From contig CM037874.1 in assembly GCA_021292105.1 (NCBI GenBank), positions 27,721,083-27,785,082 on the forward strand: a stretch of DNA of 64,000 bases, read 5' to 3'. The stretch's first letter is position 1; every line of letters begins with the position of its first letter. A model generated the notes under the pieces. The model was not told where the DNA came from and did not search any database. It saw nothing but the letters and a program-made list of their open reading frames with translations. The DNA is from Anadara kagoshimensis. Its lineage: Eukaryota > Mollusca > Bivalvia > Arcoida > Arcidae. Below are positions 3,501 through 46,079 of the stretch, piece by piece. The position numbers and the translations under genes were made by a program.

Positions 3501-4430
3501 TTTTTTTTTTGTAATGTAAATTTTTATTGACATAGAACAATCACAATCGATACATGTACTGTTATTTACACAAAATACAAAAAACAATAGATAAATCAAC
3601 ATACCCAATAATGTTGAAATAAATTATACAAATATCAAATATAAATAATATTATACAGTTACTTTTTGTAATAAATGTAGTATAATTGTCATGTGCTACT
3701 TTTGATCTTATAGAGCAATGCATTCAAAGGTAGCTTATTTAGATATATTATTTTATAAAGATTCAAAAAAGCACCTGACATGATTGATGCTGTCAGAGGA
3801 AAGGGGTGATAGAGAGAAAAAAATTCAACCTAGAACAGCTCTCCAAAAGGTCTCCAAAATTTTTCAAACTCTTCAATTGCATTTGTTTTTAATTGCTATA
3901 TGGTTCTGGGTGATAAAATGAGCTTGATAGTATGAAATAAATTCTTGAATATTGAGTGTTTTTCCTTTAACTTTCGTTCTAAAAATAAAATTTCTAACTA
4001 AAATATATAAAACATTTATAGGTTTTGTTTCAAAATTCCAAATATCGCTTCTTTTTCATTGATGTATAAGTCTATTTGACATTTTGCTTTTATTAATTTT
4101 GTTATTTTCATCCAAAAATCATTTACAATTTGGCATTCCCAGAATAAATGAGTAGTTGTTTCACAAAATATTTTACAGAAGGTACATTTGTCATCTAATC
4201 TTATTTGTAACTTTTACAAATAATTGTTTGTGGCAAGTAATTTATCGTTTATTCTGTATTGAAACCATTGTAAATATGAGTTTTGTGTTGTATAAAAAGG
4301 GAGACAATTAGTATTATTCCATTCTTTTTCGCCAAATAAAAATTCACTTGTCCACTTTAATTCTTATGTTTTACATCTTTTGGATTTGAGAAATAAACTA
4401 TACATATCTTTGCTACCTTTTTCTGATTTT
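3501..4430 (-). pseudogene. LINE ORF2 C-terminus and 3' end
   Basis: The reverse complement encodes a broken C-terminal ORF2 region including LQWFQYRINDKLLATN and a Cys/His cluster CTFCK...THLFWEC, typical of the zinc-knuckle-like tail of L1/Tx1 ORF2 proteins. It ends in an A-tail at 3501-3510. Stops interrupt the frame. The short - strand frame near 4700 belongs to the neighbouring repeat, not to this protein. Confidence 0.8.
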
Positions 4431-5318
4431 TTAGCTCAACTGGCTATAGCCACTGAGCTTATGCCATGGTGAAGCGTGTGTCTGTGCGTGCATCCGTGTG
4501 TAAACTTTAATCTTCTCTGAAACCACTGGGCCAATTGGAACCAAATTTGGTGTGGAAAGTCCCTAGGTGGAGTAGATTAAAGTGTGGACAAATCAACTTC
4601 CTGCGGCATCCAAGATGGCCGGCTTTGCAAAAACCTATAAATAGGCGTTATATTTTTTTTTTGGACAGATTTAGTTCAAAATTGAGATTTAGGAAGTAGA
4701 TGTCTAGCCATTTAATATATGTAACGGGTTTTTCTGTAAATTTCTGTAAATGTTTGCTCATAATTAGCAGAATATGCAAATTAGATGCTAAATTTAGACA
4801 ATCCTTTGAAAATCTTCTCTGAAACTGCAAAGCCAAATGAAGCCAAATTGGGGGTGAAATGTCCCTAGGTGGAGTAGATTAAAGTTTGTACAAATCAACT
4901 TCCTGCGGCATTCAAGATGGCCACCATTGCTGTAAATAGCAAAAACCTATAAATGTTCATTACATGTTTATTGATGGACCGATTTAGTTCAATCTTGAGA
5001 TTTAGAAAGTAGATGTCTTGACATTTAATATATGTAATAGGTTTTTATGTAACTTTTTCTATATGCTCATAATTAGCAGAATATGCAAATTAGATGCTTA
5101 ATTTAGACAATTCTTTGAAAATCTTCTTCTTTGAAACCACATTAAACCTATTAATGGTCATTACACAAATATTTATCAACAAATGTAGTTCAAATTTGAG
5201 ATTTAGAAAGTAGATGTCTAGCCATTTAATATCTGTAATGGTTTTGTTACTCAGTTTTCACAATATGAGATGCAACTTGTCTGCCAGTTGAGCAATACAG
5301 GCCCTATTGGGCCTCTTG
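4431..5318 (+). mobile_element. Tandem-repeat (HINE/pearl-like) element in LINE
   Basis: Starts TTAGCTCAACTGGCTATAGCC and ends CCAGTTGAGC-AATACAGGCCCTATTGGGCCTCTTG. Internal repeat units carry CCTAGGTGGAGTAGATTAAAG and CAAGATGGCC. Subterminal GCTCAACTGG pairs with CCAGTTGAGC. LINE coding sequence lies on both sides. No ORF of its own. Confidence 0.8.
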
Positions 5319-5452
5319 TTTAATAATTTCAAAATATGGAAAATATGGACATGTTAGTTTATTATTTTGCTTTTGAAATTTTCTTGAATTTGATTTTACT
5401 TCATTTATTACTCCTAAATATTCTAAAAAATTTGATTTTAACTGATGCGTTT
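5319..5452 (-). pseudogene. LINE ORF2 fragment
   Basis: The reverse complement reads THQLKSNFLEYLGVINE and onwards, part of ORF2 downstream of the RT. Joined to the fragment at 6372 it continues DELQ-KTHQLK in frame, which fixes the intervening element's borders. Confidence 0.75.
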
Positions 5453-6371
5453 TTAGCTCAACTGGCTATAGCCAGCTGAGCTTATGCCATGGTGAAGCAT
5501 GTGTCCGTGCGTCCGTAAACTTTAATCTTCTCCTCTGAAACCACTGGGCCAATTGGAACCAAATTTGGTGTGGAAAGTCCCTAGGTGGAGTAGATTAAAG
5601 TTTGTACAAATCAACTTCCTGCGGTATCCAAGATGGCCACCATTGCTATAAATAGCAAAAACCTATAAATGGTCATTACATGTTTATTGTTGGACCGATC
5701 TAGTTCAAATTTGAGATTTAGAAAGTAGATGTCTAGCCATTTAATATATGTAACGGGTTTTTCTGTAACTTTTTCTGTTTGCTCGTAATTAGCGTAATAT
5801 GCAAATTAGATGCTAAATTTAGTCGATTCTTTGAAAATCTTCTTCTCTGAAACCACATACCCAAATGATGCCAAATTTGGTGTGGAAAGTCCCTAGGTGG
5901 AGTAGATTAAAGTTTGTACAAGTCAACTTCCTGCAAGTCAACTTCCTGCGGCATCCAAGATGGCCGCCATTTCTATAAATAGCAAAAACCTATAAATGGT
6001 CATTACATGTTTATTTTTGGACCGATTTAGTTCAAATTTGAGATTTAGAAAGTAGATGTCTAGCCATTTGATATATGCAACAGGTTTTTCTGTAACTTTT
6101 TCTGTTTGCTCATAATTAGTAGAATATGCAAATTAGATGCTTCTCTGAAACCACATAGCCTAATGAAGCCAAATTTGGGGTAAAAAGTCCCTAGGTGAAG
6201 TAGATTAAAGTTTGTACAAATCAACTTCCTGCGGCATACAAGATGGCCACTATTACTATAAATAGATGTCTAGCTATAAAATATATGTAATAGTTTCGTT
6301 GACTCAGTTTTCACAATATGAGATGGAACTTGTCTGCCAGTTGAGCAATACAGGCCCTATTGGGCCTCTTG
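5453..6371 (+). mobile_element. Tandem-repeat (HINE/pearl-like) element in LINE
   Basis: Same family as 4431-5318 (start TTAGCTCAACTGGC, end CCAGTTGAGC, hairpin AGGCCC/GGGCCT, CTTG). Flank joining restores the LINE reading frame with no duplicated bases and places the insertion between two T residues. Confidence 0.85.
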
Positions 6372-6652
6372 TTTGTAATTCATCAAAAGAATAAAACTCA
6401 TCATTATTGTTCATGAGATCGCTTATAAATATAGCCCCTTGTTGTATCCAATGTTTTGAAGATACTATTTTCTTGTCAATTGTTAACTCAGAATTATTCC
6501 AAATACTAGATTAAAGATATTGAAACCATGTTTTACAACAGTTTATCTCATTTAGCTCATTAAACATTTACAAAACTTGTTGCCAAAAAATGTTGATTTC
6601 TTTACTGGGTATTGTATTTGTTATTAGACTATTCGTTGTGATCCCCACGTTT
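6372..6652 (-). pseudogene. LINE ORF2 fragment
   Basis: The reverse complement encodes VGITTNSLITNTIPSKEINI and, further on, a segment ending FYSFDELQ. This is typical ORF2 C-terminal sequence with several stops. Confidence 0.75.
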
Positions 6653-8779
6653 TTAGCTCACCTGGCTAAAACCAGCGTGAGCTTATGGTATGATGCGGCA
6701 TGTGTATGTGTGTGCGTGCGTCCGTCCGTCCGTAAACTTTACTTAAACAACTTCTTCTCCTGAACCGAAAGAGCTAGGATCCCCAAACTAAATATACTTA
6801 ATCAGCATGTTAAGTTTTACAAAGTTTGTGAATAGATTTGACTTTGACCTTAGTTCAAGGTCACAGTGACCTAGTATGTAAAATGCCAAAAATGACTTCT
6901 TCTCATGAACCAAAAGGCCTATAGACATCAAACTTCATATATAGAATCAGTATGTAGACTTCTACAAAGTTTGCGAATAGATTTGACCTTGGCCTCAGTT
7001 CAAGGTCACATTGACCTTTTATGTAAAAATGCTAAAAACGACTTCTTCTCGTGAACCAAAAGGCCTATAGACATCAAACTTCATATATAGAATCAGTATG
7101 TAGACTTCTACAAAGTTTGCGAATAGATTTGACCTTGGCCTTAGTTCAAGGTCACATTGACCTTTTATGTAAAAATGCTAAAAACGACTTCTTCTCGTGA
7201 ACCAAAAGGCCTATAGAAATCAAACTTCATACATATAATCAGTGTGTAGACTTCTACAAAGTTTGCGAATAGATTTGACCTTGGCCTTAGTTCAAGGTCA
7301 CATTGACCTTTTATGTAAAAATGCTAAAAACGACTTCTTCTCGTGAACTAAAAGGCCTATAGACATCAAACTTCATATATAGAATCAGTATGTAGACTTC
7401 TACAAAGTTTGCGAATAGATTTGACCTTGGCCGTAGTTCAAGGTCACATTGACCTTTTATGTAAAAATGCTAAAAACGACTTCTTCTCGTGAACCAAAAG
7501 GCCTATAGAAATCAAACTTCATATATAGAATCAGTGTGTTGACCCCTACAAAGTTTGCGAATAGATTTGACCTTGGCCTTAGTTCAAGGTCACATTGACC
7601 TTTTATGTAAAAATGCTAAAAATGACATCTTTTTGTGAACCAAAAGGCCTATAAACATCCAACTTCATATATAGAATCAGTGTGTTGACTCCTACAAAGT
7701 TTGCGAATAGATTTGACCTTGGCCTTAGTTCAAGGTCACATTGACCTTTTATGTAAAAATGCTAAAAATGACTTCTTTTCGTGAATCAAAAGGCCTATAG
7801 ACATCAAACTTCATATATAGAATCAGTGTGTTGACTCCTACAAAGTTTGCGGATAGATTTGACCTGGACCTTAGTTCAAGGTCACATTGACCTTGTATGT
7901 AAAAATGCTAAAAATGACTTCTTTTCATGAACCAAAAGGCCTATAAACATCAAACTTCATATATAGAATCAGCATGCTGCAAAGTTTGTGAATTGATTTG
8001 ATCTTGACCTTAGATCAAGGTTACAGTGGTTAAAAATGATAAAAATGACATCTTTTCATGAACCTAAAGTTCTATAGACATCAAACTTCAAATATAGAAT
8101 CAGTGTGTAGACTTCTACAAATTTTGTGAATAGATTTGATCTTGACTCGCATGTCATTTGTGCAAAAAAAAAATGCTAAGAATGACTTTTTGTCATGACC
8201 CATAAGGAATATAGTCATCAAACTTCATACATAAAGTCATTGTGGTGAGTTCTGAAAAGTTACAAATAGATTTGTCCTTGGTCTTTATACAGTGGTAGAG
8301 CGTCCGCCTCGAGAGCGGGAGGTCGTGGGTTCGAACCCCGGCCGGGTCATACATAAGACTTAAAAATTTGAGATACTGCTTCCTCACCTGGCACTCGGTA
8401 TTAAGAGGACAGAGTATCGACTGGTTAACCTGGTGCCAGGATAATGTGACTGGGGGAGTGGTATGCTTGTCTGTGGCATACTGACTCGGTGAGCTAGCAC
8501 CTTAACAAAAAGTCGCCCTGAGTGCGCGCTAGTGCAAGGCAGACCATATAACACACTCGCACATCTCACGCATACACAAACTTGTTCTTAGATTAATCCT
8601 TAGAGATTAATAAACTTGTTCTCGTCACGAATAGCTGAAAAATTGCTGATGTGACGTTAAACAACATTACAACCAACCAACCAACCTTGGTCTTTATACA
8701 TGGTCATAGTGGCAGAAAATTGCTTTGATTTTGGCTAATGCACACCAGGTGAGCGATACAGGCCCTTTTGGGCCTCTTG
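6653..8779 (+). mobile_element. Large tandem-repeat element with 146 bp monomers
   Basis: Starts TTAGCTCACCTGGCTAAAACC and ends CCAGGTGAGC-GATACAGGCCCTTTTGGGCCTCTTG. The core is a head-to-tail array of monomers whose CAAGGTCACATTGACC motif recurs at 7001, 7147, 7293, 7439, 7585, 7731 and 7877, that is every 146 bp. A SINE is inserted near the 3' end. LINE coding flanks on both sides join in frame. No protein of its own. Confidence 0.9.
8292..8684 (+). mobile_element. tRNA-derived SINE (5' truncated), 16 bp TSD
   Basis: The 5' head is tRNA-like (GTGGTAGAGCG and a B box GGTTCGAACCCC). The body is shared with 21579-21986, and the 3' region GCTGAAAAATTGCTGATG-TGACGTTAAAC is followed by a CCAA-type tail. 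The target duplication CCTTGGTCTTTATACA lies at 8276-8291 and 8685-8700. The empty form of this site is present at about 213-228. Compared with the other copy the first tRNA bases are missing. It is not a functional tRNA gene. Confidence 0.9.
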
Positions 8780-9011
8780 TTGATTAATTAAATTAATTTA
8801 GACTTTAGTCATATTATTCTGTGAATCCCGGTTAACTTTATTGCGTTTATGAAACTTTCAAGGTCAATCATTTTCAGTCAGTTTTGAATAATTACTGAAC
8901 GTTTAATTTTTCTGGCTTTGAGTTCCATACAAAATTGAAAAATGAGTTGTGGAGATACTTTATGGTCTTTTCAGGAGGATTAGGGAGAGACAAAAATAAA
9001 TAATTAAGTTT
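8780..9011 (-). pseudogene. LINE ORF2 fragment
   Basis: The reverse complement reads KLNYLFLSLPNPPEKTIKYL followed by HNSFFNFVWNSKPEKLN, a conserved ORF2 region after the RT core. It continues from the fragment at 9419 across the SINE. Confidence 0.8.
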
Positions 9012-9024
9012 AGATATTACAAGT

Positions 9025-9405
9025 TGTTGTAATTGTTGTAATGGTGCTTAACGTCGCATCAGCAATTTTTCAGCTATTCGCGACGAAATCTATTTTTTAT
9101 TAATCTCAAGGATTAATCTATACACAAGTTCATGAGGTGCGTGAGTTGTGCAGTATTTGTGATCTGCTTTGTACTAGAGTGCACTGATGGCGACCTTTAG
9201 AGTGCTAGCACACTGGTAAACAATGTCGCAGATTAACATTGCACACCACTCGGTCACATTATACTGACACCGAGCCAACCAGTAAGGGCCAACGGCAAGG
9301 AAAATTCACTTTCTCACATGTGGCCCGACCGGGGATCGAACCCACAGCGGTGAGAGACCTTGGATTTGAAGGCCAACACCTTAACCACTCGGCCACCGCG
9401 GCCCC
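9025..9405 (-). mobile_element. tRNA-derived SINE with a different tRNA head
   Basis: Read on the - strand, a class II tRNA-like head (GGCCGAGTGGTTAAGG A box, GGGTTCGATCCCC B box) precedes the same 3' region as the other two SINEs (GATTAATCCTTGAGATTAAT and GCTGAAAAATTGCTGATGCG). The 13 bp target duplication AGATATTACAAGT at 9012-9024 and 9406-9418 is exact. It splits LINE ORF2 coding sequence. Confidence 0.9.
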
Positions 9406-9418
9406 AGATATTACAAGT

Positions 9419-10236
9419 GTTTTTATAATCGTTATTCTTCCAAGTGGTGTAAGATTCATAGAAGACCAAAGTTTCAGTATTAATTTTATTTCCTTAATTC
9501 TTTTGTCATAATTCAAATCTATTATTTTGAATAAATTTATTGAAAAATTTATACCTAACAAAGAAAAATATTTTGCATTACATTCAAATTTATACCTATG
9601 ATTAAAAGTTTCTCCACAAAACTTTTTACAACCTATCCAAACAGATTTACATTTAGATTCATTGATATTTAGACCAGATATTTTTGCAAAATAGTCAAAA
9701 AACTTTTAAAGTTTCTTATAAAGAAGAATTTGATCCGTCTAAAATAAAAATGGTACATCATCTGCAAATTGAGATATTTTGTGTTCTTCGGTACTGATTG
9801 TGATTCCCTTAATACTCTTATTATTTTCGACTAGGATATATAATATTTCTGCACATAGTAAAAGGATATAGCTTGAAATTGGATCTCCTTGTCTAACCCC
9901 TCGTGATATTGAAAAAAAAATCAGATAAATAATTATTCTGTGTTACTGCTGCAGTGATATTTGTGTAGAAAACTTTAATCCGTTTTTTATACTTTCTCCA
10001 AAATTAAAGAAATTTAAAACTTCAAATAAAAACGGCCAGGCTACACTATCATATGCTTTTTGAAAATCGATCAGAAACAACATTCCAGGGAGATTTTTCC
10101 GTTTTGTAAATTCCATGATATTGTATATTAATATTTTCTCCAATATATCGCCCGCTTATAAATCTGGTTTGGTTTTCTGAAATTACGTTACTTAGGACCA
10201 GTTTTAATCTATTAGCTATACAGCCAGATGCTATTT
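9419..10236 (-). pseudogene. LINE reverse transcriptase, C-terminal half
   Basis: The reverse complement holds in order KIASGCIANRLKLVLSNVIS, the FIDFQKAYDSV motif, GVRQGDPIS, the catalytic FADD box (9758-9769), then LLGINFS and NLTPLGRITIIKTL. These are standard RT motifs of L1/Tx1-type elements, spread over different frames because of frameshifts and stops. Confidence 0.85.
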
Positions 10237-10940
10237 TTAGCTCACCTGAGCACAAAGTGCTCAAGTGAGCTATTGTGATCAGTCTTTGTCGTCCGTCGTG
10301 CGTCAACTTTTGCTTGTTAACACTCTAGTGGCCACAATTTTTATCCAATCTACCTCAAACTTGCCCTAAGGCATCTTCTTGACAAAAGCCAGCTCAAGTT
10401 CGTATATGGGTCATGTCGGGTCAATAAGTAGGTCACAAGGTCAAATCATAGGAAAGCATTGTTAACACTCTTGAAGCCCCAATTTTAGTCCAATCTTCAT
10501 CAAACTTGCTCAGAATGATCCTCTTGACAAAAGCTAGCTGTAGTTCGTATATTTGCCATGTTGGGTCAATAAGTAGGTCAGGAGGTCAAATCTTAGAAAA
10601 ACCTTGTTAACACTATGGAAGCCCCAATTTTAGTCCAGTCTTCATCAAACTTGCTCAGAATGACCCTCTTGACAAAAGCTAGGTCAAGTTCATATATCGG
10701 CCATGTTGGGTCAATAAGTAGGTCACGAGGTCAAATCTTAGAAAAACCTTGTTAACACTATGGAAGCCCCAATTTTAGTCCAGTCTTCATCAAACTTGCT
10801 CAGAATGATCCTCTTGACAAGAGCTAGCTCCATTTCGTATATGGGCCATATTGGATCAATAAGTAGATCACTTAGTCATCATACCAGACCTCCTTACAAA
10901 TTATTCTCAGGTGAGCGCCAGGGCCTTCATGGCCCTCTTG
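10237..10940 (+). mobile_element. Tandem-repeat element with 145 bp monomers in the RT
   Basis: Starts TTAGCTCACCTGAGC and ends CTCAGGTGAGC-GCCAGGGCCTTCATGGCCCTCTTG. GCTCACCTGAG and CTCAGGTGAGC are perfect inverses. CTCTTGACAA recurs at 10521, 10666 and 10811 (145 bp). Removing exactly 10237-10940 restores the RT sequence NVEYKIASG in frame with a T|T junction and no duplication. Confidence 0.92.
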
Positions 10941-11466
10941 TATATTCCACGTTTAAGAGAGATATGGGCCTCCAGTTATTTAAAAATTGTCTATCTTTAT
11001 CCCCCTTTGGTATACATGTTATAATCCCTGCTCTTTGAGTTATAGATAAATGACCCAATGAATACCCGTAATTTATTGAACGTATAATAAAGTCCCCTAA
11101 ATCTTTCCAAAATACTTCAAAAAATTCAGTTGTAAACCCATCAGACCCTGAACATTTATAATTTTTCATATGTTTTAACGTCTTCAGAGCCTCACTATAA
11201 GTAATTTCTCCTTCTATATACTTTGCCTCCTTGTCTGATACTTTAGGTTTGTTAAAACTTTTAAAATGTTCTTCAAGATTTATTGGTTCTACTGGTTTTT
11301 CAGAATATAAACTTTTATAAAACAATTTTACTTCTTCAAGGATTTCTTTTTGATCATTTAGTTCCGTGCCATCTGTCTTTTTTATTTTAGTTATTGTTTT
11401 TGATATATAATTTTTATTTTCAAGATTACAAAAAAGTGAGACGGTTTTTCTCCCTCTAAAATCCAT
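10941..11466 (-). pseudogene. LINE reverse transcriptase, N-terminal half
   Basis: An open segment contains KCSGSDGFTTEFFEVFWKDL and NNWRPISLLNVEY, the RT fingers and first catalytic-domain motifs of L1/Tx1-type LINEs. It is cut by the element at 10237-10940. Confidence 0.85.
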
Positions 11467-12560
11467 TGTGCTCTTGACCTTACTAGATGACCTTTAAGTT
11501 TTTCTTTCCTTATGTTTTCTAAGTCAGATTTCTTTTTTTTTCGATAATGTTGTAGTTTTTTTTAATGTTATCAATATCTGTCTCAAATTTATTTATGTTG
11601 TCTAATAATTGTTTTTCCTTTTTATCTATTTGTTTTTTTTCTATAACCACTGTAAGAAATTGTTTGCCCCCTAATTTCCATAAGTAAGGTTTCTAAAAAT
11701 AGTTGATCTGAAATTGTAAATTGAATTGATTTATTATCAATGGCATCTATGTTTTTCAAGTTATAAATTGGCACGCTATATTGGAGTTTAACTGTTGAAA
11801 TGGTATTTTTAATTTTTTCTAAATATTTTTTATCTTCAAGTAAATGTTATTAATTTCCATAAGCCTCTGCCTACAGAAAACTCGTTTAATTTCATTGATA
11901 ATATTACCATTGATTGAATGGTCTGATCTATAACTAGGGTCAATGTCTATTTTTGAAATTCTGTTGATTAGGGAGCTGCTTATTTAAAAGAAGTCTAATC
12001 TAGCTTGTTTAAAAGGGTTTTTTCTGCGCCATGTATATCTCCGTAAATTTGGGTACAAGTATCTGAACGGTCTACTATACTAGTCTCATCTATTATTTCT
12101 AATAATTTATCTCTTGCTTTTGGGTTATTTATGTTTTTATAGTTATTAGTGTCCAATTCTGGTTTAAAAAACAAGATTAAAATCACCGCATATTATAATA
12201 TTTTTGTTATCAAACTTATTACATACAATTTCTTTAGGTTTGCTATAAAAAGAAGGGCTATTAGTATTTGGGCCATATATTGTTTTTAACGTAAATGAGT
12301 GTTTTTCTACTGTTATATTTAGAGTTAGAAAGTTGACATCCTCTTGTTTACATTGTGAATTTATTTTGTACTCAAAATTATCTTTAAATAGTATACATAC
12401 TCCTCTAGCAGCAGTATTATATGAACATGATACTACTTTACCACCCCTTTGGGCTGAAATAAAATTTTCATCATTTGGACCAAAATGTACGTCTTGTAAA
12501 CAGTAAATATTAGTATCTTTAGCATTAAGAGAATTAAAAAGATCTCTTCCATATGTCCAT
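11467..12560 (-). pseudogene. LINE endonuclease domain and linker
   Basis: Endonuclease motifs NIYCLQDVHF, ARGVCILF, IYGPN and GDFNLVF appear, then, after frameshifts, ELDTNNYKN and RYTW/RSDH-type sequence. This is the exonuclease-endonuclease-phosphatase fold of LINE ORF2. Its first segment, which should carry the catalytic Asn, appears to be missing; the frame runs directly from the IMPACT-like domain. Confidence 0.75.
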
Positions 12561-12900
12561 ATTTTGAATCTTTTAAAACCGAGTTTCTCTCCTTTAGGAT
12601 TCCACCGTGACACGATTACAAGGAAATTTCCTATTTCTTTATCCAGTAGCATGTTTAGAATTTTCTTACCAGCTCCATATTCGCTGTCATCGTCAATTGA
12701 ATCTTTTAAATACCCATGTCTATCCAGAAAGGTGCATGCTAATACATTGTGGTTGGCTTCAATGATATGGGGTTCCTTAATAATCTGGAGTGCGGCTTCT
12801 CTAGCTTCCGCTATGCTTTTTACTCTTACTGCATGTGATTGGAACCTATTTTCTCCTACTGTTGTAACATAACTGTGTTTAATATTATATTTTAGGTATC
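12561..12900 (-). pseudogene. IMPACT-N/UPF0029-like domain of the LINE
   Basis: Roughly residues 25-130 of a 262-residue open frame (12164-12952, - strand) carry the signature of the IMPACT N-terminal domain: GENRFQSHAVRV, a middle EANHNVLACTF, the acidic IDDDSEYGAGKKIL and NFLVIVSRW...LGFKRF. Family proteins (IMPACT, YigZ) show the same order: F-x-x-H, A-x-H-x-x-x-A, DDGE-x-x-G, VVVSRW-GG-x-x-LG-x-RF. The LG-x-RF end runs directly into endonuclease sequence. Upstream, in another frame, is ORF1 RNA-binding sequence. It probably formed the C-terminus of ORF1 and was fused to ORF2 by deletion (inference). Confidence 0.7.
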
Positions 12901-13062
12901 GATTAGTTCTCCTTGTGCACGTCTCGGTCCGGAAATATAAGTTTGTCACCACTTACTTTAGTATTAACCCCACCTTCTCTATACTGATCCCTGAGGTAAA
13001 AAGCTCTTTTGTGTTTTTTGCGTTGGGCTTCTGGGTAGTGACTGTAAACCCTTATACCGTTT
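12900..13062 (-). pseudogene. LINE ORF1 RNA-binding region, second part
   Basis: The reverse complement encodes KNGIRVYSHYPEAQRKKHKR and, further on, KVSGDKLIFPDRDVHKEN then a stop. The pattern matches the RRM/C-terminal domain of L1-type ORF1 proteins. The segment continues in frame across the 13063-15605 insertion to 15606. Confidence 0.75.
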
Positions 13063-13116
13063 TTAGCTCCCCTGGCCTAAAGGCCATGTGAGCTTTTGCC
13101 ATCACTCAGCGTCCAT

Positions 13117-13147
<31 letters not shown>

Positions 13148-15605
13148 CAGTCAGTCAGTCAGTCTGTCCGTCTGTAAACTTTTCACATTTTGGCTATCTC
13201 CTCTGAAACCCCTGAACCAATTTTAACCAAACTTTACAGGAATGTTGTATAGAAGGTCCTTTACATAGATTGCCAAAATTTTTCTGATCTGCCAAAAAAC
13301 ATGGCTGCCAGCGCAGAAGATAGTTTAACATTGGACCCTATGGGAAAAACGAATTTTTGGCTATCTTCTCAGAAATGACTGAAGCGAATATAACCAAACT
13401 TTACAGAAATGATGTATAGAAGGTCCTTTTCTTTGATTGCCAAAATTTTTTTGATCCGCCAAAAAACATGGCTGCCAGCGCAGAAGATAGTTTAACATTG
13501 GACCCTATGGGAAAAGCATATATATGCTATCTCCTCTGAAGCTAGTGAAGCATATTGAACCAAACTTTACAGGAATGATGTATAGAAGGTCCTTTACATA
13601 GATTGCCAAAATTTTTCTGATTGGCCAAAAAACATAACTGCCAGCGCAGAAGATAGTTTAACATTGGACCCTATGGGAAAAATGAATTTTTGGCTATCTT
13701 CTCAGAAATGACTAAAGAGAATTTAACCAAACTTTACAGAAATGATGTATAGAAGGTCCTTTACTTTGATTGCCGAAATTTTTCTGATCTGCCAAAAAAC
13801 ATGGCCGCCAGGGCAGAAGATAGTTTAACATTGGATCCTATGGGAAAAGCATATATATGCTATCTCCTCTGAAGCTAGTGAAGCAAATTGAACCAAACTT
13901 TACAGGAATGATGTATAGAACGTTCTTTACTTTGATTGCCAAAATTTTTCTGATCTGCCTAAAAACATGGCTGCCAGCGCAGAAGATAGTTTAACATTGG
14001 ACCCTATGGGAAAAACGAATTTTTGGCTATCTTCTCAGAAATGACTGAAGCGAATTTAACCAAACTTTACAGAAATGATGTATAGAAGGTCCTTTACTTT
14101 GATTGCCGAAATTTTTCTGATCTACCAAAAAACATGGCTGCCAGCGCAGAAGATAGTTTAACATTGGACCCTATGGGAAAGGCATATATATGCTATCTCC
14201 TCTGAAGCTAGTGAAGCAAATTGAACCAAACTTTACAGGAATGATGTATAGAAGGTCCTTTACATAGATTGCCAAAATTTTTCTGATTGGCCAAAAAACA
14301 TGGCTGCCAGCACAGAAGATAGTTTAACATTGGACCCTATGGGAAAAATGAATTTTTGGCTATCTTCTCAGAAATGACTGAAGCGAATTTAACCAAACTT
14401 ACAGAAATGATGTATAGAAGGTCCTTAACTTTGATTGCCGAAATTTTTCTGATCTGCCAAAAAACATGGCCGCCAGGGCAGAAGATAGTTTAACATTGGA
14501 CCCTATGGGAAAAGCATATATATGCTACCTCCTCTGAAGTGAGTGAAGCAAATTGAACCAAACTTTACAAAAATGATGAATGAAATAAATTCAACAAGAT
14601 TGCCTCCTTACCTCCACTAAACACATGACCACCAACATAGATAAAAAAACACATTTCAACCATCTCTTGAAACTACTGAAGCAATTCATCCATTCTATAC
14701 AATAATTATATATATAAAACCCTTTACTACAATACAGCCAAAGATGTACCATTGTGGTTAATGAAATGTGTATATCCTTCCTCTTGTTTAATCTATCAAA
14801 AAGCTTTCTTTTGCATTTAAAATGATGCATTTTGCAAGTTTAAACACAAAATAAAACTTGTCAGTAGCACTACCAGAGAAAAAGCTACATTCCATTTGAT
14901 ATGTCGATCACAGTGATTTTTCTTGGAAAGTCTAGCTGAACTAACATTGACCAAATTTTTTTATCAACAAAAAATATAACTTCCAGTGGGGTACATAGTC
15001 AGTCAAAAGCTGATCATAGTCGATCGATCAAAAGCTCATCAGAACTTTGTTTTAATTTATCTATGTAAATGGCCTCTAAATAAAACTTATTTATTTATTT
15101 ATAGTTGAACATGGGACCAAATGCAAAAAAAACCCCAAAAAACTGCAATCTGATTAAAATAAGATCTCTCACTTGCTGCCCTTTTCTGATATAGTTGCTT
15201 CATGAGAGAGTTAAGGGTCATATGTGAATGACCTTATGGTAATTAACTAAAACTGACCATTCAAATTGCACGTTTCATTTACAAAAAAGGCATAACACTT
15301 TCAAAATCTTGGAAACTGAAATTTCATTGGACAATAAATGTTGCAACAATAGGTCATTCACATATGCCCCTAAACGGTGTTTCCTTAGATCTCCAACCAC
15401 GCCTATATCAAAAATGGGGGAGCAAGTGAGAGATGTGATTTCAATCAGATTGAAAAAACTGATTAGTACATATAGTTCTACAGTGATTTCCTTAGCCATT
15501 CTGTATAATATGAAAAGTGCATTTGTTCATCACTGGAATACAAATTTGCTTTAAAAGCATTTCAGTCAGGTGAGCGATACAGGCTCAGCTGCACTGAGCC
15601 TCTGG
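13063..15605 (+). mobile_element. Tandem-repeat element, about 167 bp monomers in pairs
   Basis: Starts TTAGCTCCCCTGGCC and ends CAGGTGAGC-GATACAGGCTCAG-CTGCA-CTGAGCCTCTGG. A run of TCAG repeats lies at about 13122-13162. AGAAGGTCCT recurs at 13251, 13419, 13584 and 13751, giving monomers of 165-168 bp that alternate in sequence to make roughly 333 bp dimers. The last kilobase (about 14580-15550) is non-tandem and may be captured DNA. The hairpin has changed on both arms relative to relatives, and the end is CTGG rather than CTTG. Confidence 0.85.
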
Positions 15606-15939
15606 TTTAGTTTTTTGGCATTATCTAACACTAACACTTTTTGTGAATAATTGGTACAACGGCCCACTATAGATCTTGGGTAAGTGTCGTTTGTGCTCGT
15701 TTTACTTCTGATACGATGGATTCTGTCAAACTTGACACAAAGTTGCTTAATTAGGACTGGTTACTTCTTAAAAAAAAATTTCTCCAAAAAAAGTGGGTGA
15801 TTTTGGCTGTTAGGATTGTGAACCTAGCCTTTGAATGTAAAGAGATTGCTGAAAAAGTCATACCTACATGTAAGATAGGTTATATCCATAAATATACATG
15901 CACATTAAGGTAGACTACTAAACTTATGGCAACATATTT
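15606..15939 (-). pseudogene. LINE ORF1 RNA-binding region, first part
   Basis: The reverse complement encodes FDRIHRIRSKTSTNDTYP, then RSIVGRCTNYSQKVLVLDNA and KKLK, which joins NGIRVYSHYP at 13062 in frame after removing the inserted element. R-x-I-V-x-R and LDNAKKLK are RRM features of L1-type ORF1. Upstream of about 15770 the frame is lost. Confidence 0.75.
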
Positions 15940-16705
15940 TTAGCTCACCTGTGCACAAAATACTCAAATAAGCTATTGTTGTGGGTCTTTGTCCATCCAG
16001 CGTGCATCAACGATTGATTGTTAACATTCTAGAAGCCACAATCTTTCATCAAATCTACCTAATACTTGCTAAATGTTATCCTCTTGACTAGCTAGCTTTG
16101 TAGTTTGTATATGAGTCATGTTGGATCAAAAAGTACATCACATGCTCAAATTATAAAAAAATCAAGCTAACACTCTTGAGACCCCAATGGAAGTCCAGTC
16201 TTCACCAAACTTGCCCAGAATGGTCTTTTGCCAAAAAACCGGGTCAAGTTTGTATATGGGTCATGTTGGGTCATTGTGTAGGTCATTAGGACAAATTATT
16301 GGAAAACCTTGTTTACACTATTGAGACCCAAGTTTTAGTCCAATCTATATCAAACTTCCTGAGAATGACCGTCTTGACAAAAACTAGCTCAGGTTCGTAT
16401 ATGGTTCATTTTGGGTTAATCAGTAGGTCAGTAGTTCAACTATAGGAAAACCTTGTTTACATCCTGGAGGTGTCAATTATAGAACTTTATCAGAATGATC
16501 ATTTAGAAAAAGCTGGCCTAAGTTCACATACAAGCCATGTTGGGTCAGTAAGTAGGTCACTAGGTCAAATGATAGGAAAACCTTTTAACACGCTTGAAGC
16601 TTCAATTTAGTCTAATCTTCGAAGTTGATCAGAATAATTCTCTTGACAAATGCTAGTTTAAGTTGAAATATTGGTCATGTTGGGTTAATAAGAAACCCTA
16701 TCATC
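15940..16705 (+). mobile_element. Degenerate tandem-repeat element
   Basis: Starts TTAGCTCACCTGTGCACAAAA and resembles 10237-10940 (units with TTGACAAAAAC.AGCTC and TCATGTTGGGTC). No terminal hairpin is recognisable, so the 3' end is unclear. Confidence 0.6.
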
Positions 16706-17180
16706 AAACTTGTCAGGTATTACAATATATTTTCCTCATTGCAGCTCATTGACTTCATGTGGCAGGTCTCTCTCTGGTCAATTCTTTTAGCTGAAAATGG
16801 GCCCAATTCACAATTGAAAGTCATATGGTTTTTCACAGTCACTAAATCCATTTTCATAATTTCAATCTTTATGTCAAATATCATTCTAGATTGCTGTCAT
16901 ATAAATGGACAGAATTGATGTTATTAGAATTTGATTTAAGCATGTAATCATCTATATAAAAGAGTATTGAAATAGTGTAATAGTATTTTTCATTTTCACA
17001 ATTCATCTATTATGACATTTAATAACTTATAAAAAAGAGAATCAACACCCTTGAGTGCGGTTGGTGGTGGAGTCTGCTGGTGGATCCTAATGGATTCAAT
17101 AGAGTTCTGAAGAATTAAATAATAATTAAATAAATAACAGAAGACTCAACACTTCACAGACTGCTATGGTATTTATTCTG
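16706..17180. other. AT-rich intronic sequence
   Basis: No gene, tandem array or clear element end was seen in 16706-17040. The part from 17040 to the ribozyme motif may belong to a Penelope-like element on the - strand, but no RT sequence was recognised there. Confidence 0.4.
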
Positions 17181-17189
17181 GTACTGTTG

Positions 17190-17233
17190 ATTCGACATGT
17201 TTCGCCATGCTAGGATGGCGTCATCAGGAATGC
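17190..17233 (-). ncRNA. Hammerhead ribozyme motif (type I, minimal stem III)
   Basis: On the - strand the order is ATTC, CTGATGA, CGCCAT-loop-ATGGC, GAAAC, ATGTC, then GAAT. ATTC and GAAT can form stem I, GCCAT/ATGGC stem II, and C-AT-G a two-base minimal stem III. Predicted cleavage is after the C of GTC (complement of 17194). All core residues CUGAUGA and GAAA are present. Such short-stem-III hammerheads are known from Penelope-like elements and metazoan retrozymes. Whether it folds actively cannot be decided here. Confidence 0.7.
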
Positions 17234-17399
17234 CCTGTTACAATTTTATCGAGCTAACGTATAAAATGCGGTTGTTATTTATCACGTGATTCTTATTGTT
17301 GCGGTTTATAATTTATGAATATTGTAAACATACAGTAATGAAACAGATTGTTCTTGTGATTCTATGTGTAACTTTTTGAAATTAATAAACTTACTGGAA

Positions 17400-17821
17400 T
17401 AAAATGGGTAACCACATTGAGATTCTAAATGTAGGCGATTTTTTGAAAATCTTCTCCAAAACTAAAAAGCCAAATGAAATCAAATTAGGCATGGAAAGTC
17501 CCTAGGCAAGTAGATTAAAGTTCGTACATATCATCTTTCTGCGGCATCCAAGATGGCAGCCATTACTATAAATAACAAAAACCTATAAATGGTCATTACA
17601 CACTTATTTATTGATTTGGTTCAATTTTAAGATCTCGAAATATATATATATATATATATAGCATAATTTGCAAATGAGATGCTAAATTTAGGCGATTCTT
17701 TCAAAATCTTCTTCTCCAATCACCATATGTAACAGATTTTTCTGTTTTGTTTACCCAATTTCACAAAATTAGATGCAACTTGTCTGCCAGTTGAGCAATA
17801 TAGGCCCTATTAGCCCTCTTG
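17400..17821 (+). mobile_element. 3' part of tandem-repeat element
   Basis: Unit sequence as in 4431-6371 (CATCCAAGATGGCAGCC, AAAACCTATAAATGGTC) ending CCAGTTGAGC-AATATAGGCCCTATTAGCCCTCTTG. A short TA run lies at about 17640-17660. The start is not visible. Confidence 0.7.
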
Positions 17822-17844
17822 TTTGGAGTAAAATACATGGTAGC

Positions 17845-18705
17845 AGGTCAACTTGACCCAAGATAAAATTGCCCCTGTCAAATTCGTCCCCACTTTTCTC
17901 AAATTGCCACCATTCAAAAATCCCCCCACTTTTTGCAATATTCCCCCTATGTCAAAATGACCCTCAACTTTGGTAAAATCCTTCCTTTTAGGAATTGTGA
18001 AAAATTATGATTTAGATTCAAAGAACCCTTTTATTATTTTTTCTTGTGATGGCTTTGATATATCGCAAATATCAATTTTTGTATTGTAATGTAATTAATG
18101 GATTAATAAAGATGTCTCGCACCTGACAAAAAATAGGTATAATTTATGTAATCAGTTTATTTGTAATAAGAAAAACTAAAAGTTTTTGTAAAAATACCAT
18201 ATACTTATAACAGTGGGTACAGTACAAAGAGAATATTAAATGTTTAGAAAAATAATACTATCTACTATCTTTTTAAACTCTCTGAAATCATTCTTTTTTG
18301 TTTTTGGCACATTCAACGCATTATCTACTTGATGGCTTCCACTACATCAGTATTTATTGTACTTGAAAATAATTTTGTCAGAAATAATATTGGCCGGTGT
18401 TTTAAAAATTAACAATTGCAAAAATAATGTGTAAATAAAATCATTGGTTCAAAATCAAATTGTATGCACAGCAATTCCCTTTAACCACTAATGGCTGACA
18501 GATCAACACAAAATATGTTCTCAGCCTTCTGAAATCTCAATACGGTCATTCATAACGGCAATTTTACAAAATTTGAAGGCAATTTTGAAATAGGGGGCAA
18601 TATTGCGGAAAGTTGGGGGGGGGGATTGAATGGGGGTGATTTTGTATAAAGTGAGGGCCAATTTGACATGGACAATTTAACCATGGGGTGATTTGATAGC
18701 ATTCA
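17845..18705. mobile_element. Fold-back element with long inverted ends
   Basis: About 130 bp at 17850-17985 (marks: AAATTGCC, TCCCCACTTT, AATCCCCCCACT, AATATTCCCCCTAT) matches imperfectly, in inverse, 18555-18700 (AATAGGGGGCAATATTGCGG, GGGGATTGAATGGGGGTGA). The interior of about 570 bp shows no ORF. This is a fold-back/MITE-like structure of unknown family. Confidence 0.65.
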
Positions 18706-19345
18706 AATATATATTAATTTTCATGTGAAAAAATACAGGTTTTGAGAAAATGTGAAAATTTGTGTTAAATTTGAAAAAAATTAATATAATTATAACCTAT
18801 TTTTGAAATAGAATTTGGTTGTGAAGTTAAATCTTGTGTATTATTACATACTGAATTAGACCTGTAAGTAATTTTTTTATATTTATGGAAAAAATGCTTT
18901 TTTGTTCAACAAAATCTAGATTTTGAGAAAATGCTTTTATGACTTTGTTATTTAGAATAATAGTTTGAAATTTGGTATACAGCATCAGTCAATGTAGTTC
19001 ATAAATATAGGTAACAAATCTTAATATTAAATTTACAATTGACTGATTTTTGGGTAAAAATTGCAAATTTTGAGAAAATATATTTATGACTTTGGTTTGT
19101 AAGATAATTGTTTGAAATTTAGTATAAAACAGGAAAAATCAGTTATTCAATATGTGTTATAGCTTTTTACCATACAATCAGTGGTTGACTAATTTTGGAT
19201 TTCAAAATGCAAATTAAAAAAAAATTATTAGTTTAATTTTTGTTAATTTAATTTTTTTCAAATTTTGTGTACAACATAATATAGTTAATATAGTTCTTAA
19301 ATACATTGTGTATGCAGCAAATTTTACTATGCATTTTAATTTGAC
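18706..19345. repeat. Diverged AT-rich tandem repeat
   Basis: Units with TTTGAGAAAAT, ATGACTTTG and AGTTTGAAATTTGGTATAC recur at about 120-150 bp. Related sequence resumes at 20340-20560, so the array is split by 19350-20335. Confidence 0.5.
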
Positions 19346-39002: not shown

Positions 39003-40946
39003 CTAAACGGTCGATATTTTCTGAATACTTTCAGATTTTGAATATTCATTCAACAATTTCTGACTGGTGAACTTAATTTTCATCCACATTATTATAAAGA
39101 ACGTAACCACAAGGATACAAACTAGATTTCCTGTCATTAAAGCAAGACAGGGATTGAAGGTACAGTAAAAGTTGTTTAGTAAATTATAACTCGCCGCTGG
39201 CAAAGCGCAAATTGCGAGGAAGATCCATTCTCCAAAATTAGCTATGCCTAGAAAAGTGCTAATACTCTTGATAGACGAACATAAATCAACTGTTTCTTTA
39301 CGCAAAACTATCTCAGATTCTATAATGAAAACAACTTGCAAAAGAATCCATAGAATTAGGAATAAAGCATCTACAGCTGATTCAATAATCTTAAGCGCGA
39401 CATCGATGTACATTAAACTATGTTTATGGTGTAATTGCATAATATCGATGGTGTAATGCATACAATGAAAATATGCCAACGCCAAAAACATAATGATGAA
39501 GACATAACTTTCGCGACACCTATGTATTCTTACAAAGTTAAAATCTCGCTCCATTCCTATGGATAACAAAAGATAAAATACCATCATAAAACATCTGTAA
39601 TAAAGGGTGTAAGTTATAATTATCTTTGCATCCTCAGATGGTAATAATATCAAAGAAAAAATAAAACGCGCTAAAAACCACAAAACACCCCAAAACCATT
39701 CCACCCAATTTACGTGACCCTCACCTCCTACAGTTTCTGACGAAGGGTCATCCGTGTTTGATGTTTCTGTGGTATCTCCTTGTTTGTCTTTCTCGACCGT
39801 GCCTGTACAAGATTCGTCCGTGCTTGATGCGTCTATGACATCTATCTCCTTGTCTTTTTTGGCCGTTCCTGCACAAGATTCGTCCGTGTTTGATGCGTCT
39901 ATGACATTTATCTCCTTGTCTTTCTCGACCGTTCCTGTACAAGATTCGTCCGTGTTTGATGCGTCTATGACATATATCTCCTTGTCTTTCTCGACCGTTC
40001 TTGTAGATGTTTCAAATGTATTGAATATTTCTATCATTAATGTACAAGGGTTACCCCAGTTTCCATCTTGGTTTGTTTTCTCATTTTGGAACAGATTTGC
40101 AATTAAATAGATACCAATTAGAGGAAAACTAGTCAATGCTGGATGTAACAAATCCTGCAAATATTGAATCAGTATGTATGTTTGATTTACGCGTTGTAAC
40201 GTAATAATTAAAAGTAAATACATCCAAATGCTAATCATTGCTACGGTAAGAATGGAAAGGATACATTTTTTGCTTATTGTTAAAGCCTTTAACCGAAAGT
40301 TAAAAAAAACAATTTGTAAGTAAAGGATTAACACAATGAAACAAAAAAGGTAAATGAATTCTGCGTCCACCACACTTCTTTCAAAATCGGCTGTCTCGAA
40401 GCAAATATCAAATATTGAATCAACAGACTTTATTAAACATATAAACCCGAATATCCAAATGAATGTCACTTTAATACAGTATTTGTCATTTGGGTCCTCC
40501 CATACCAAGTTCATAAAGCACGGGTGTGTTTGGGTGTCAATTGGGGTCCCTGTGTAAATCTGAAAATTATTAGACCGTTTTCTGTTTGAACAAACCAACC
40601 AAGCTACATAAAGCACAGCTATGATTTGAGTGAGGGATAGAGTAAACAAGACCGATGTTTTTAAGGAGTTATTTCCGTCATGGTTTACACCGTGATTTCC
40701 GTATGTGATAACACCAAAAATAATTGTGAAACCCAAAATTAGCATGATTAGAACACGTTTCGTTATGACATTTGTATCATGGTCACGCAATCCAGTAATT
40801 AACGCATCTTTTATGAATCTTGGCAAAGCGATATTGGGTGCGAGTCTATACATATCATGTTCCTCAGTGATGGCGTCTTTTTCAACGCTATTTTGAATAT
40901 TCATCTCATGCGATCCAGACATACCTTGTAAAATGGGTTTCTCCAT
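39003..40946 (-). CDS. Otopetrin-like 12-TM protein (intact copy)
   Basis: 647 residues from ATG (40944-40946) to TAG. Twelve hydrophobic segments are seen in two sets of six, separated by an acidic linker (roughly residues 310-430). Family-like positions include LYLQIVFFNF in TM4, SIWMYLLL in TM5, LHPALTSFPLIGIYLI in TM6, ILWILLQVVFII in TM10 and STFLGIANFGEWIF in TM11. Otopetrins are proton-selective channels built as two six-helix halves; the match is to layout and scattered motifs, so the call is a divergent member. The coding part has no intron. TTTGCATTTCAG ends 16 bp before the ATG and is conserved in the second copy, so a 5' UTR intron acceptor is likely. The linker holds an in-frame 22-residue repeat. 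Confidence 0.72.
   Translation of the reverse strand: MEKPILQGMSGSHEMNIQNSVEKDAITEEHDMYRLAPNIALPRFIKDALITGLRDHDTNVITKRVLIMLILGFTIIFGVITYGNHGVNHDGNNSLKTSVLFTLSLTQIIAVLYVAWLVCSNRKRSNNFQIYTGTPIDTQTHPCFMNLVWEDPNDKYCIKVTFIWIFGFICLIKSVDSIFDICFETADFERSVVDAEFIYLFCFIVLILYLQIVFFNFRLKALTISKKCILSILTVAMISIWMYLLLIITLQRVNQTYILIQYLQDLLHPALTSFPLIGIYLIANLFQNEKTNQDGNWGNPCTLMIEIFNTFETSTRTVEKDKEIYVIDASNTDESCTGTVEKDKEINVIDASNTDESCAGTAKKDKEIDVIDASSTDESCTGTVEKDKQGDTTETSNTDDPSSETVGGEGHVNWVEWFWGVLWFLARFIFSLILLPSEDAKIIITYTLYYRCFMMVFYLLLSIGMERDFNFVRIHRCRESYVFIIMFLALAYFHCMHYTIDIMQLHHKHSLMYIDVALKIIESAVDALFLILWILLQVVFIIESEIVLRKETVDLCSSIKSISTFLGIANFGEWIFLAICALPAASYNLLNNFYCTFNPCLALMTGNLVCILVVTFFIIMWMKIKFTSQKLLNEYSKSESIQKISTV
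39745..40010 (-). repeat. 66 bp coding minisatellite in otopetrin-like linker
   Basis: About four in-frame units of 22 residues, consensus IDASNTDESCTGTVEKDKEI with two variable residues. Base changes between units are few. The second locus keeps only diverged relics (IKASNTGESCTRTIEK), so the array expanded in this copy. Confidence 0.85.
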
Positions 40947-40962
40947 TATAAGCAACACATTT

Positions 40963-40975
40963 CTGAAATGCAAAT
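40963..40975 (-). promoter_or_regulatory. Likely splice acceptor of 5' UTR intron
   Basis: On the - strand TTTGCATTTCAG lies just upstream of the start codon. The related locus has TTTTTATTTCAG at the same place (57165-57180). Confidence 0.5.
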
Positions 40976-40979
40976 ACAA

Positions 40980-41725
40980 AAAGGGCTTGATATAGTATTA
41001 GTCAAAAGAGCCATGTTCATCTTAAAGAGTACCTGTAACGAATTTTTTTAAATTTTATATTTGTGTTACATACAATTTGAATATCACAATATCGAAAACC
41101 GCATCAAAATTGATGATCAAATAGCAAAGCTATAGCAGTTTAAACTTACGAATTAAGCATCTCGTAATCTCTAACAGTGAAACAATCCGTTTTGAGAGTT
41201 ACCTATGTGTGACGTCACTTAAGTAACCGTAGTAGTATTTAACATGACAGACAGCAGTAATAATGCTGATGTAAAACAATATATCACATAACCCTCCTGT
41301 TTATTGATGGAATAAAACGGTGTAATATTTTTCGTATTACACAGGTGCCCATGTAATATCACTTGATTGTGACGTTATCAGTTATCACGCTTCTTATTTA
41401 CGTAGTGGTCGTGCCTGATGACGTCATATGAAAACTGTGTCAGTCTGTTGTTTATTTTAGGACTTTTGAAGACTTTCGATTCTTTGAAAAATAATTTTTT
41501 TTGTGCATTTGGAAAAATATTATGATTTAAAACTTACATACTGATTACGTCTTTTTTTTTCTAGGTGATTAATTTACTTTTACTATAACCAAAAAGAACT
41601 ATATATTTTTACTTGCGCAGTATTAATTTGGAGGTGATTTGTCTGACCTAGATAGAAATCGTCTGTTTCTATATGGCATCACAATAATATGTACATGTCA
41701 TTATGCTTCGGTATTTTGAGTTATG
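40980..41725. other. Upstream region of the otopetrin-like gene
   Basis: No gene recognised. Contains several GTGACGT(CA)/TGACGTCA-like sites (about 41208, 41371, 41418), possible CREB/ATF elements, unverified. Confidence 0.3.
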
Positions 41726-44849: not shown

Positions 44850-46060
44850 CCATGTATTGCTGAATTAGATGGTAGAAAATAATAATTTCATAAATATATG
44901 AAAAAGACAATCGGTTATAAAAATTTAAAAAAGTTGTTGTACCCGATCGTTTTGTCATTTCGGATAGAGAGAAAGTAGAGTTTAGCCGCAGATCCTACCG
45001 TCGCTATGAGGGGGTACATTCTAGCGATTGTATGTAACTGGATCAATTGCTGTTAATCTGGGTTTTAATTAACTGCTGATTATCACCACAATATTCCCGT
45101 TTCATGTTAATGGTGAAGTACAGTTGTTTTACCAGTTCCGAATTTTTACTACCGAATAATCTAAAATTTCAATCCCGTTCAATTAAAGGAATCGCAAAAT
45201 AACTTTCTAAATTTGCTTCTACTTGAATGTGTGGGCATTAATTGTTTAAATAATATAAACTTCAACCGCTTCCTAAATGTATGTGCAGGACAGGTCGACA
45301 GATTGTTGGTGACCTAGTTTAACGATGTAAACAAATCGTGATCACGGAAATGCTTTTTTCAAGAAAACATACTACCACATGTTTTTGAGGACAGGTGTCG
45401 ATATTTTGGAATAAGTAAACATTTGTATTATTACACCACATAAATTTTATTTCCTCTGCTTGTGGATGACGTCTGCAGCAGCGCTTATATGAAACCCTGT
45501 TCGGAACTGTATTTAAAATTTGCACACAACGCTGTACGAATTATCTCCCTTTCACGAAAGTAAAATCTAATCGATAAACATTTTAAAATATGTCACAATT
45601 GCCTCAACATCAAAATACGTTATCATAACCTTCAAAATAAATTTAAATTTCCGTAGATTTCAAGAAGAATTAATTAAACAACCTGCCGTTGCTGTTCATT
45701 TCATAAAAAGTTATGATTTTACATCGTAGGAAGCAAACTTCTCGAACTACTTTTTATTGTAAACATGAGATCAGTTCGCCAAATTGCAGAAATTATTAGA
45801 TGCATCCCGTCGCAATATTTTACTAGATTCCGAAATGTATTCCGAAAATTTATTCCAAATCTGCATATTTAACCAAATGCATTACCCGTCTCAGAATACA
45901 TATCTCACGATAAAACAGATATACTTCTTTCACGCTCATTTACCAGGCGCACTATTTCCAGGTGTACTCATATCTTATAATTTCATAGCAAAGAAGCTCG
46001 ATATCTTGGAAGAAAGCGATACCAATGTACGCGTTCACTTTGTTCACGCTGTACAAAAAT
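44850..46060. other. Non-repeat DNA inside the 6.4 kb element
   Basis: Contains one open frame on + (45784-46062, 92 codons, MQKLLDASRRNILLDSEMYS...) and one on - (45319-45525), neither recognised. It may be captured host sequence or an older insertion. Confidence 0.35.
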
Positions 46061-46079
46061 GATGATTACATCAATACAA

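Follow-up and report, generated by a model that had tools for sequence, protein, structure and literature searches.

An L1-type LINE lineage in the bivalve Anadara kagoshimensis with an IMPACT-type UPF0029 domain at the end of ORF1

Background

The 'type II' ORF1 protein of the L1 clade, as in LINE-1 ORF1p (PDB 2yko), consists of a coiled coil, an RRM and a C-terminal domain (CTD), in that order. What ORF1p does is described as less clear than what ORF2p does, and the five ORF1 types summarised in the accessible text of the same review (PMC4120745) include an 'unclassified' type V and none with a UPF0029 domain. Extra domains have been gained and kept in other LINEs, such as a PHD or an esterase domain in ORF1 of CR1/L2 elements and a helicase in ORF2 of TRAS elements (PMC4120745, PMC5563155), and the evolution of ORF1 in CR1/L2 is reported to be reticulate (PMC4120745). 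L1-Tx1 elements have been reported from 35 mollusc species in a survey (PMC10294476).

IMPACT/Yih1 proteins combine an RWD domain with an 'ancient' (UPF0029) domain, and the latter domain family is also that of the bacterial YigZ-type proteins. In the accessible portions of two papers, Gcn1 binding and Gcn2 inhibition are assigned to the RWD domain (PMC7140605, PMC4503747), which when overexpressed alone impairs growth under starvation, and what the ancient domain does is said to be unknown, even in Yih1 (PMC7140605). Overexpression of Yih1 inhibits Gcn2, and both Yih1 and IMPACT interact with ribosomes; the regions of Yih1 reported as sufficient for binding Gcn1, actin and ribosomes overlap with a segment (residues 68-132) that is not part of the ancient domain (PMC4503747). 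Invariant features common to Yih1 and yigZ are described as loops on one side that may bind conserved molecules, and in pull-downs the Yih1 fragment 133-258, comprising the ancient domain, recovered Cdc28 with an efficiency similar to that of the full-length protein (PMC4503747).

Results and discussion

Structure of the window copy

The window (the whole stretch of 64,000 nucleotides of A. kagoshimensis DNA analysed here) contains a LINE on its minus strand at 3503-15736, as delimited by comparison with a reference element elsewhere in the genome (L034) that has an open ORF1 and a broken ORF2. The window copy is 5' truncated and begins in the RRM. Within it, a 262-aa frame that is open from stop to stop (12164..12952, minus strand) matches the Pfam UPF0029 profile PF01205 at residues 36-130 with an E-value of 5.8e-15 (hmmscan; 55.6 bits, cut-off 27), placing the domain at 12563..12847 on the minus strand (profile positions 4-97 of 107), and a whole-genome search with PF01205 recovered the window domain at E 9.5e-13. 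A single PDB sequence matched the first 134 residues of the frame at E <= 1 (phmmer), namely 'Protein IMPACT homolog' 6bqi (E 9.7e-5); this is yeast Yih1, an identity with which its 258 residues agree. Residues 138-260 of the same frame resemble Exo_endo_phos at a score under the cut-off (hmmscan; E 0.0016, 18.6 bits against 24.5). A preliminary description of this DNA had proposed an ORF1 with an IMPACT-N/UPF0029-like domain, and the profile match of the 262-residue frame confirms it. InterPro's name for the UPF0029 domain is 'Impact, N-terminal'. The preliminary description likewise spoke of the IMPACT N-terminal fold, of which the assignment to UPF0029 stands but not the position, since IMPACT/Yih1 proteins carry this 'ancient' domain at the C-terminus (PMC4503747, PMC7140605). 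Fold prediction from the single window sequence gave an unusably poor model (pLDDT 64), and neither IMPACT nor YigZ appears among the names of its 50 listed Foldseek matches.

Alignment with L034 resolves the window copy into minus-strand pieces. The RRM part of ORF1 lies at 15606..15736 (92% DNA identity with L034 1918-2048) and is separated by an insertion from the 3' part of the same ORF1, comprising the end of the CTD, the linker and UPF0029, at 12561..13065 (86%, L034 2046-2588). The RNA-binding sequence earlier noted ahead of the domain is present insofar as the end of the CTD is attached to it, but little of it lies directly ahead, the RRM piece being beyond a 2.5-kb insertion. At 12549..12561 is a deletion junction where L034 2588 adjoins 4416, so that ~1.8 kb (the end of ORF1, the inter-ORF region and the start of ORF2) is absent relative to L034; this deletion produced the UPF0029-endonuclease fusion that the 262-aa frame encodes across the junction, and bears out the earlier suggestion that a deletion joined ORF1 to ORF2. 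Beyond the junction follow the endonuclease (EN) and the start of the reverse transcriptase (RT) of ORF2, with broken frames, at 10935..12549 (92.4%, L034 4416-6021), the remainder of the RT at 9406..10237 (92.8%, L034 6015-6847), downstream pieces of ORF2 at 8777..9037 (88.4%, L034 6820-7094), 6369..6654 (92.3%, L034 7090-7375) and 5316..5454 (90.8%, L034 7371-7512), and the end of ORF2 with the 3' part of the LINE at 3503..4433 (87.9%, L034 7506-8465). The window copy is, as its sequence reads, a dead and deleted member of its L1-type LINE lineage.

The insertions that split the element include tandem arrays at 6745-8144, 10313-10871 and 13188-14578, built of tandem units of 145-166 bp. For the last of these, which sits inside the insertion that splits ORF1, where the match to L034 is interrupted (13188..14578, no strand assigned), TRF reports 333/166-bp units. 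The outer sequence of one insertion (TTAGCTCACCTGAGC..., near 10237) may resemble bivalve pearl/HINE-type elements.

Three loci (L039, L040 and L041) match the window element over 8.4-9.9 kb, insertions included, at 99.2-99.9% identity, and positions 17000-19000 of the window are found again at ~100% next to the same three copies. Four contigs therefore carry, at 99-100% identity, a block of 12-14 kb or more that contains the dead LINE (window 5331-19000, and from C9:34590535, C10:27130000 and C13:36628150 onwards). Because insertions and flank are shared at this level, the dead LINE most likely multiplied within the block rather than by retrotransposing itself; the fourfold block would represent either a recent segmental duplication or the cargo of a large mobile element.

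The lineage in the genome

The genome examined comprises 1.115 Gb in 36 contigs (G000), and the results below describe this one animal genome and not the spread of the lineage across species. A six-frame search with PF01205 gave at least 150 matches (150 of 275 candidates were scored, and all 150 exceeded the Pfam cut-off), 34 of which, by our own count, belong to frames 340 aa or longer. We fetched 20 loci of ~10 kb each, 17 picked for long frames (L022-L038) and three (L039-L041) because they nearly duplicate the element in the window, and since most were picked for long frames they show the architecture and not its frequency. The 17 contain stop-to-stop frames of 341-483 aa that encode an L1-type ORF1 with UPF0029 at its end, and the other three repeat the broken copy of the window. 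In L029, L030 and L033 the frame is missing the N-terminal region that ORF1 usually has, and L038 has a gap within its UPF0029 domain. Downstream of ORF1, tblastn located an EN in 16 and an RT in 14 of the 17 elements; neither was found in L038, and no RT of their own in L028 and L035. ORF2 is broken in most of the 17, L034 included. In L036, ORF1 is open, as is an ORF2 of 1271 aa with EN, RT and zf-RVT. L035 (C8) and L036 (C14) are 99.77% identical across 3469 bases on different chromosomes, which indicates that some copies are recent.

A profile built from 15 ORF1 N-parts (A1) matched the LINE-1 ORF1p structures 2yko (E 7.9e-7) and 2ldy (E 3.4e-6) over the late coiled coil, the RRM and the CTD, and Pfam's own ORF1p models gave no match in the five ORF1s scanned. 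The ORF2 of L036 contains PF03372, PF00078 and zf-RVT according to Pfam, and its best match among solved structures was the LINE-1 ORF2 protein (E 2e-97, with one match over residues 7-1262 at 4e-97), R2 being matched at 2e-23. An A-rich run was present at all four 3' ends inspected (L022, L023, L027 and L036). Given the matches of A1 to LINE-1 ORF1p and of ORF2 to LINE-1 ORF2p, the elements are L1-type LINEs by sequence, in a sense that spans L1 and Tx1 proper, with an L1-type ORF1p plus one added domain.

The ORF1 architecture is almost certainly a coiled coil, an RRM, a CTD and an IMPACT-type 'ancient' (UPF0029) domain, which keeps the order of type II ORF1p but appends UPF0029 at the C-terminus, behind a linker of ~30 residues. 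The elements resemble the LINEs with PHD, esterase or helicase domains in having gained and kept an extra domain, but the domain is a different one and the element is L1-type. No description of UPF0029 in a LINE was found in the literature searched, which lay outside Repbase and subscription papers and was partly judged from listings.

The genome was also searched from the ORF1 side with a 347-aa piece of the L034 ORF1, a query that includes the first ~67 domain residues and so favours domain-bearing matches. At least 119 matches were obtained (117 of 962 candidates scored), of which 115 cover the ORF1 core; in 95 of these 115 the match extends across 22 or more domain residues, and in 87 across 49 or more. 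Twelve of the 115 stop at query positions 217-288 (the domain starts at ~281), and eight short fragments stop before 200. Among the twelve, nine have a separate adjacent domain match, one (L047) carries the domain in other frames, and the remaining two are at C2:62445695 and C6:59217007. All four matches stopping near the domain start that we fetched (L046-L049) carry the domain in shifted frames. Among the resolved cases in the 115 core-covering matches, which were found with a query holding ~67 domain residues, no ORF1 of this clade without the domain was seen.

The earlier proposal that a LINE lineage had captured the domain agrees with these results, in that the lineage carries it in ORF1 at 17 of the 20 loci and in 95 of the 115 core-covering matches. 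The window copy, a deleted and broken element, might by itself suggest that one copy had landed beside a host IMPACT fragment or picked it up by chance, but its relatives refute this: with 150 genome matches and an architecture shared by 17 of 20 loci and most ORF1-side matches, a chance match or capture by a single copy was rejected, and we give it practically no probability.

Origin of the domain

A profile built from 16 LINE domain copies (A2) aligned with the whole ancient domain of 6bqi at an E-value of 5.5e-21 and with bacterial YigZ-type structures at 1.2e-4 and 1.2e-3. In the tree, the LINE copies and 6bqi are together on one side of a branch with support 97/93 and the three bacterial sequences are on the other. 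Ten columns are invariant across the 16 LINE copies; at eight of the ten 6bqi has the same residue, and at five, namely H, D, E, R and G, all three bacterial sequences have it as well. As judged from sequence, the LINE domain is nearer to eukaryotic IMPACT than to bacterial YigZ-type proteins, which belong to the same domain family but are separated from it by the 97/93 branch and by a two-residue insertion after the DDGE motif that the LINE domain lacks. The LINE copies form one group, and a single capture of the domain is likely, its support being limited by a value of 71/87 for that group and by the one eukaryotic IMPACT fragment that the tree includes.

The full ancient domain and eight of the ten invariant columns are thus shared with IMPACT/Yih1, but the LINE protein differs from it in its fusion to the ORF1 core, in having no detected RWD domain and in the absence of an intron. 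Pfam showed no RWD domain in five ORF1 frames. A genome search for RWD gave ten matches, none near a listed UPF0029 match and none on C19 either, despite the likely host IMPACT exon on that contig; the blank on C19 indicates that this search misses split exons and is weak. The likely host exon is 66% identical to 6bqi across 35 residues and, at locus L052, its AG splice site is located within the domain, with a GT behind the exon. At that AG site the LINE copies read on without an intron, which fits capture from a spliced transcript. The donor would have been a spliced host IMPACT transcript, captured without the RWD portion in a lineage ancestral to these families.

The likely host exon has two equal-scoring matches (G000:C19:28009838 and C19:29488231), and this pair may reflect a gene duplication or an assembly duplicate. 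A host IMPACT gene in the window was rejected because the likely host exons are on C19. In IMG/VR, one weak locus of 22 residues was found (L021); searches of IMG/VR with A1 or A2 gave no relatives, and a search of prokaryote contigs with A1 gave none.

Exchange of ORF1

Five elements on different contigs (L022, L023, L026, L027 and L036, on C16, C15, C9, C6 and C14) are 86-97% identical at the DNA level in ORF2 and the ~100-300 bases preceding it, in blocks of 1.4-4.8 kb, and yet blastn found no ORF1 match of more than 150 bases among them. At the protein level, their ORF1 N-parts are 35-53% identical and their domains 34-59%. In L026 and L027, 257 bases ahead of ORF1 are also alike (88%). 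For L027 and L036 the RT has a dS of 0.20 beside an ORF1 with saturated synonymous sites, a combination that is not explicable by point mutation.

Across 14 elements (L028, L035 and L038 are omitted, having no RT of their own found and, in L038, also a damaged domain), distances of the ORF1 N-part agree with those of UPF0029 (Spearman 0.74, p 0.0005) and distances of EN with those of RT (0.71, p 0.001). In contrast, neither the N-part (0.15, p 0.13) nor UPF0029 (0.04, p 0.38) agrees with RT, and the agreement of EN is weaker with the N-part (0.34, p 0.009) and with UPF0029 (0.22, p 0.06). The ORF1 data reject the five elements as one clade (AU p 0.005), and all five are in one half of the ORF1 tree. 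Since distances of the N-part and UPF0029 agree with each other and neither agrees with RT, the domain travels with ORF1 and ORF1 is exchanged; sequence comparison indicates that it is exchanged as a cassette between related elements. This extends the reticulate evolution of ORF1 reported for CR1/L2 to an L1-type clade.

Selection and function of the domain

Between the domains of L002 and L003, dN is 0.011 and the ratio to dS 0.26. In further same-family pairs, dN is 0.15 (L030/L033), 0.18 (L002/L022), 0.20 (L025/L028), 0.31 (L025/L033) and 0.40 (L024/L029), and as synonymous sites are at or near saturation in these last five of the six pairs, their ratios are only bounds. The window domain and that of L034 differ with dN 0.037 and dS 0.264 (dN/dS 0.14). 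The median uncorrected pN/pS over all 120 A2 pairs is 0.55, a value that says little because of synonymous saturation among distant copies. Taken together, the kept signature and the close pairs indicate that the domain appears to be under purifying selection.

We propose that ORF1 trimers coat the LINE RNA and would thereby present several ancient-domain heads, which may act as a tethered adaptor that binds a conserved partner of cellular IMPACT/YigZ. As a first guess, this partner would be part of the translation machinery, favoured by the ribosome interaction of Yih1 and IMPACT, and the RNP would stay with translating ribosomes (cis preference) or escape ribosome-linked surveillance. This mechanism by itself is a tentative possibility, made less probable by the mapping of ribosome binding in Yih1 to a region overlapping the RWD domain and linker. 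The account as a whole, in which an ORF1-UPF0029 lineage carries an IMPACT-derived domain acting as a tethered adaptor, seems to us somewhat favoured as the best explanation.

A stronger version would have the L1-type lineage use the ancient half of IMPACT as a standard ORF1 module that holds the RNP on ribosomes or hides it from ribosome surveillance, with exchangeable cassettes pairing one ORF2 with strongly diverged domains, in the manner of an arms race against a host partner. Because ribosome binding in Yih1 was mapped outside the ancient domain, we regard this version as unlikely.

The preliminary description noted that IMPACT binds GCN1 and dampens GCN2 signalling, and suggested that the LINE domain might favour translation under stress or bind ribosomes. 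Read in this way, the domain would bind GCN1 and restrain GCN2. Homology to IMPACT/Yih1, which inhibits Gcn2 when overexpressed (PMC4503747), might support such a role, but GCN1 binding is placed on the RWD domain, which when overexpressed by itself impairs growth under starvation (PMC7140605); as only the ancient part is present and five ORF1 frames have no RWD, the link is weak and the idea very unlikely.

The domain stands on a linker behind the RNA-binding core, and some copies are basic (net charge +10 in L022 and +7 in L036), as might be expected if the added domain were a head for RNA binding or RNA chaperoning that tightened the hold of ORF1p on LINE RNA and had nothing to do with translation. 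However, net charge ranges from -2 to +10 among the 16 copies and is not conserved, whereas residues shared with IMPACT are. RNA binding by bulk charge was rejected on this ground, and an RNA head in general appears doubtful. Alternatively, the domain might stabilise or solubilise the ORF1 trimer without any outside partner, which accords with the function of the ancient domain being called unknown even in Yih1 (PMC7140605). Mere filler would need no loop signature, though, and eight of the ten invariant columns equal 6bqi, so that a purely structural role is quite unlikely.

It is also conceivable, by analogy, that the domain binds a CDK1-type kinase and so ties nuclear entry of the RNP to mitosis. 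Nuclear entry of LINE-1 RNPs in mitosis has been reported (PMC12047440), and Cdc28 was recovered in the pull-down with the Yih1 fragment that comprises the ancient domain; the major Cdc28 determinant, however, is described as residues 68-132, outside the ancient domain (PMC4503747), and we consider this role highly unlikely. Independently of it, the pull-down by that fragment is a lead for the partner of the domain (PMC4503747).

The ancient domain of IMPACT/YigZ occurs from bacteria to animals and is described as having no known function (PMC7140605), and the naturally varied LINE copies could help to identify its partner. The retention of the domain without RWD and its diversification under selection suggest that the ancient domain by itself does something from which an RNP benefits.

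Other observations

The best PF01205 match in the genome (L001) is on the contig G000:C22 (728,465 bp) and is a YigZ-like, bacterial-looking gene in very AT-rich surroundings. Judging from motif and composition, this contig may be a Mollicutes-like bacterium within the animal assembly. Downstream of the LINE copy at L037, a 517-aa frame (7958-9508, plus strand) matches the Mutator-like transposase profile PF20700 at E 1.1e-10.

Two further open frames are present on the minus strand of the window, at 39003-40997 (664 aa) and 55464-56753 (429 aa). Neither has a Pfam match at E 0.01; by eye, they are related and hydrophobic, perhaps multi-pass membrane proteins. Between them, at ~46056-50347, lies a satellite array with a repeat of ~580 bases, as estimated from match spacing, which has matches on many further contigs.
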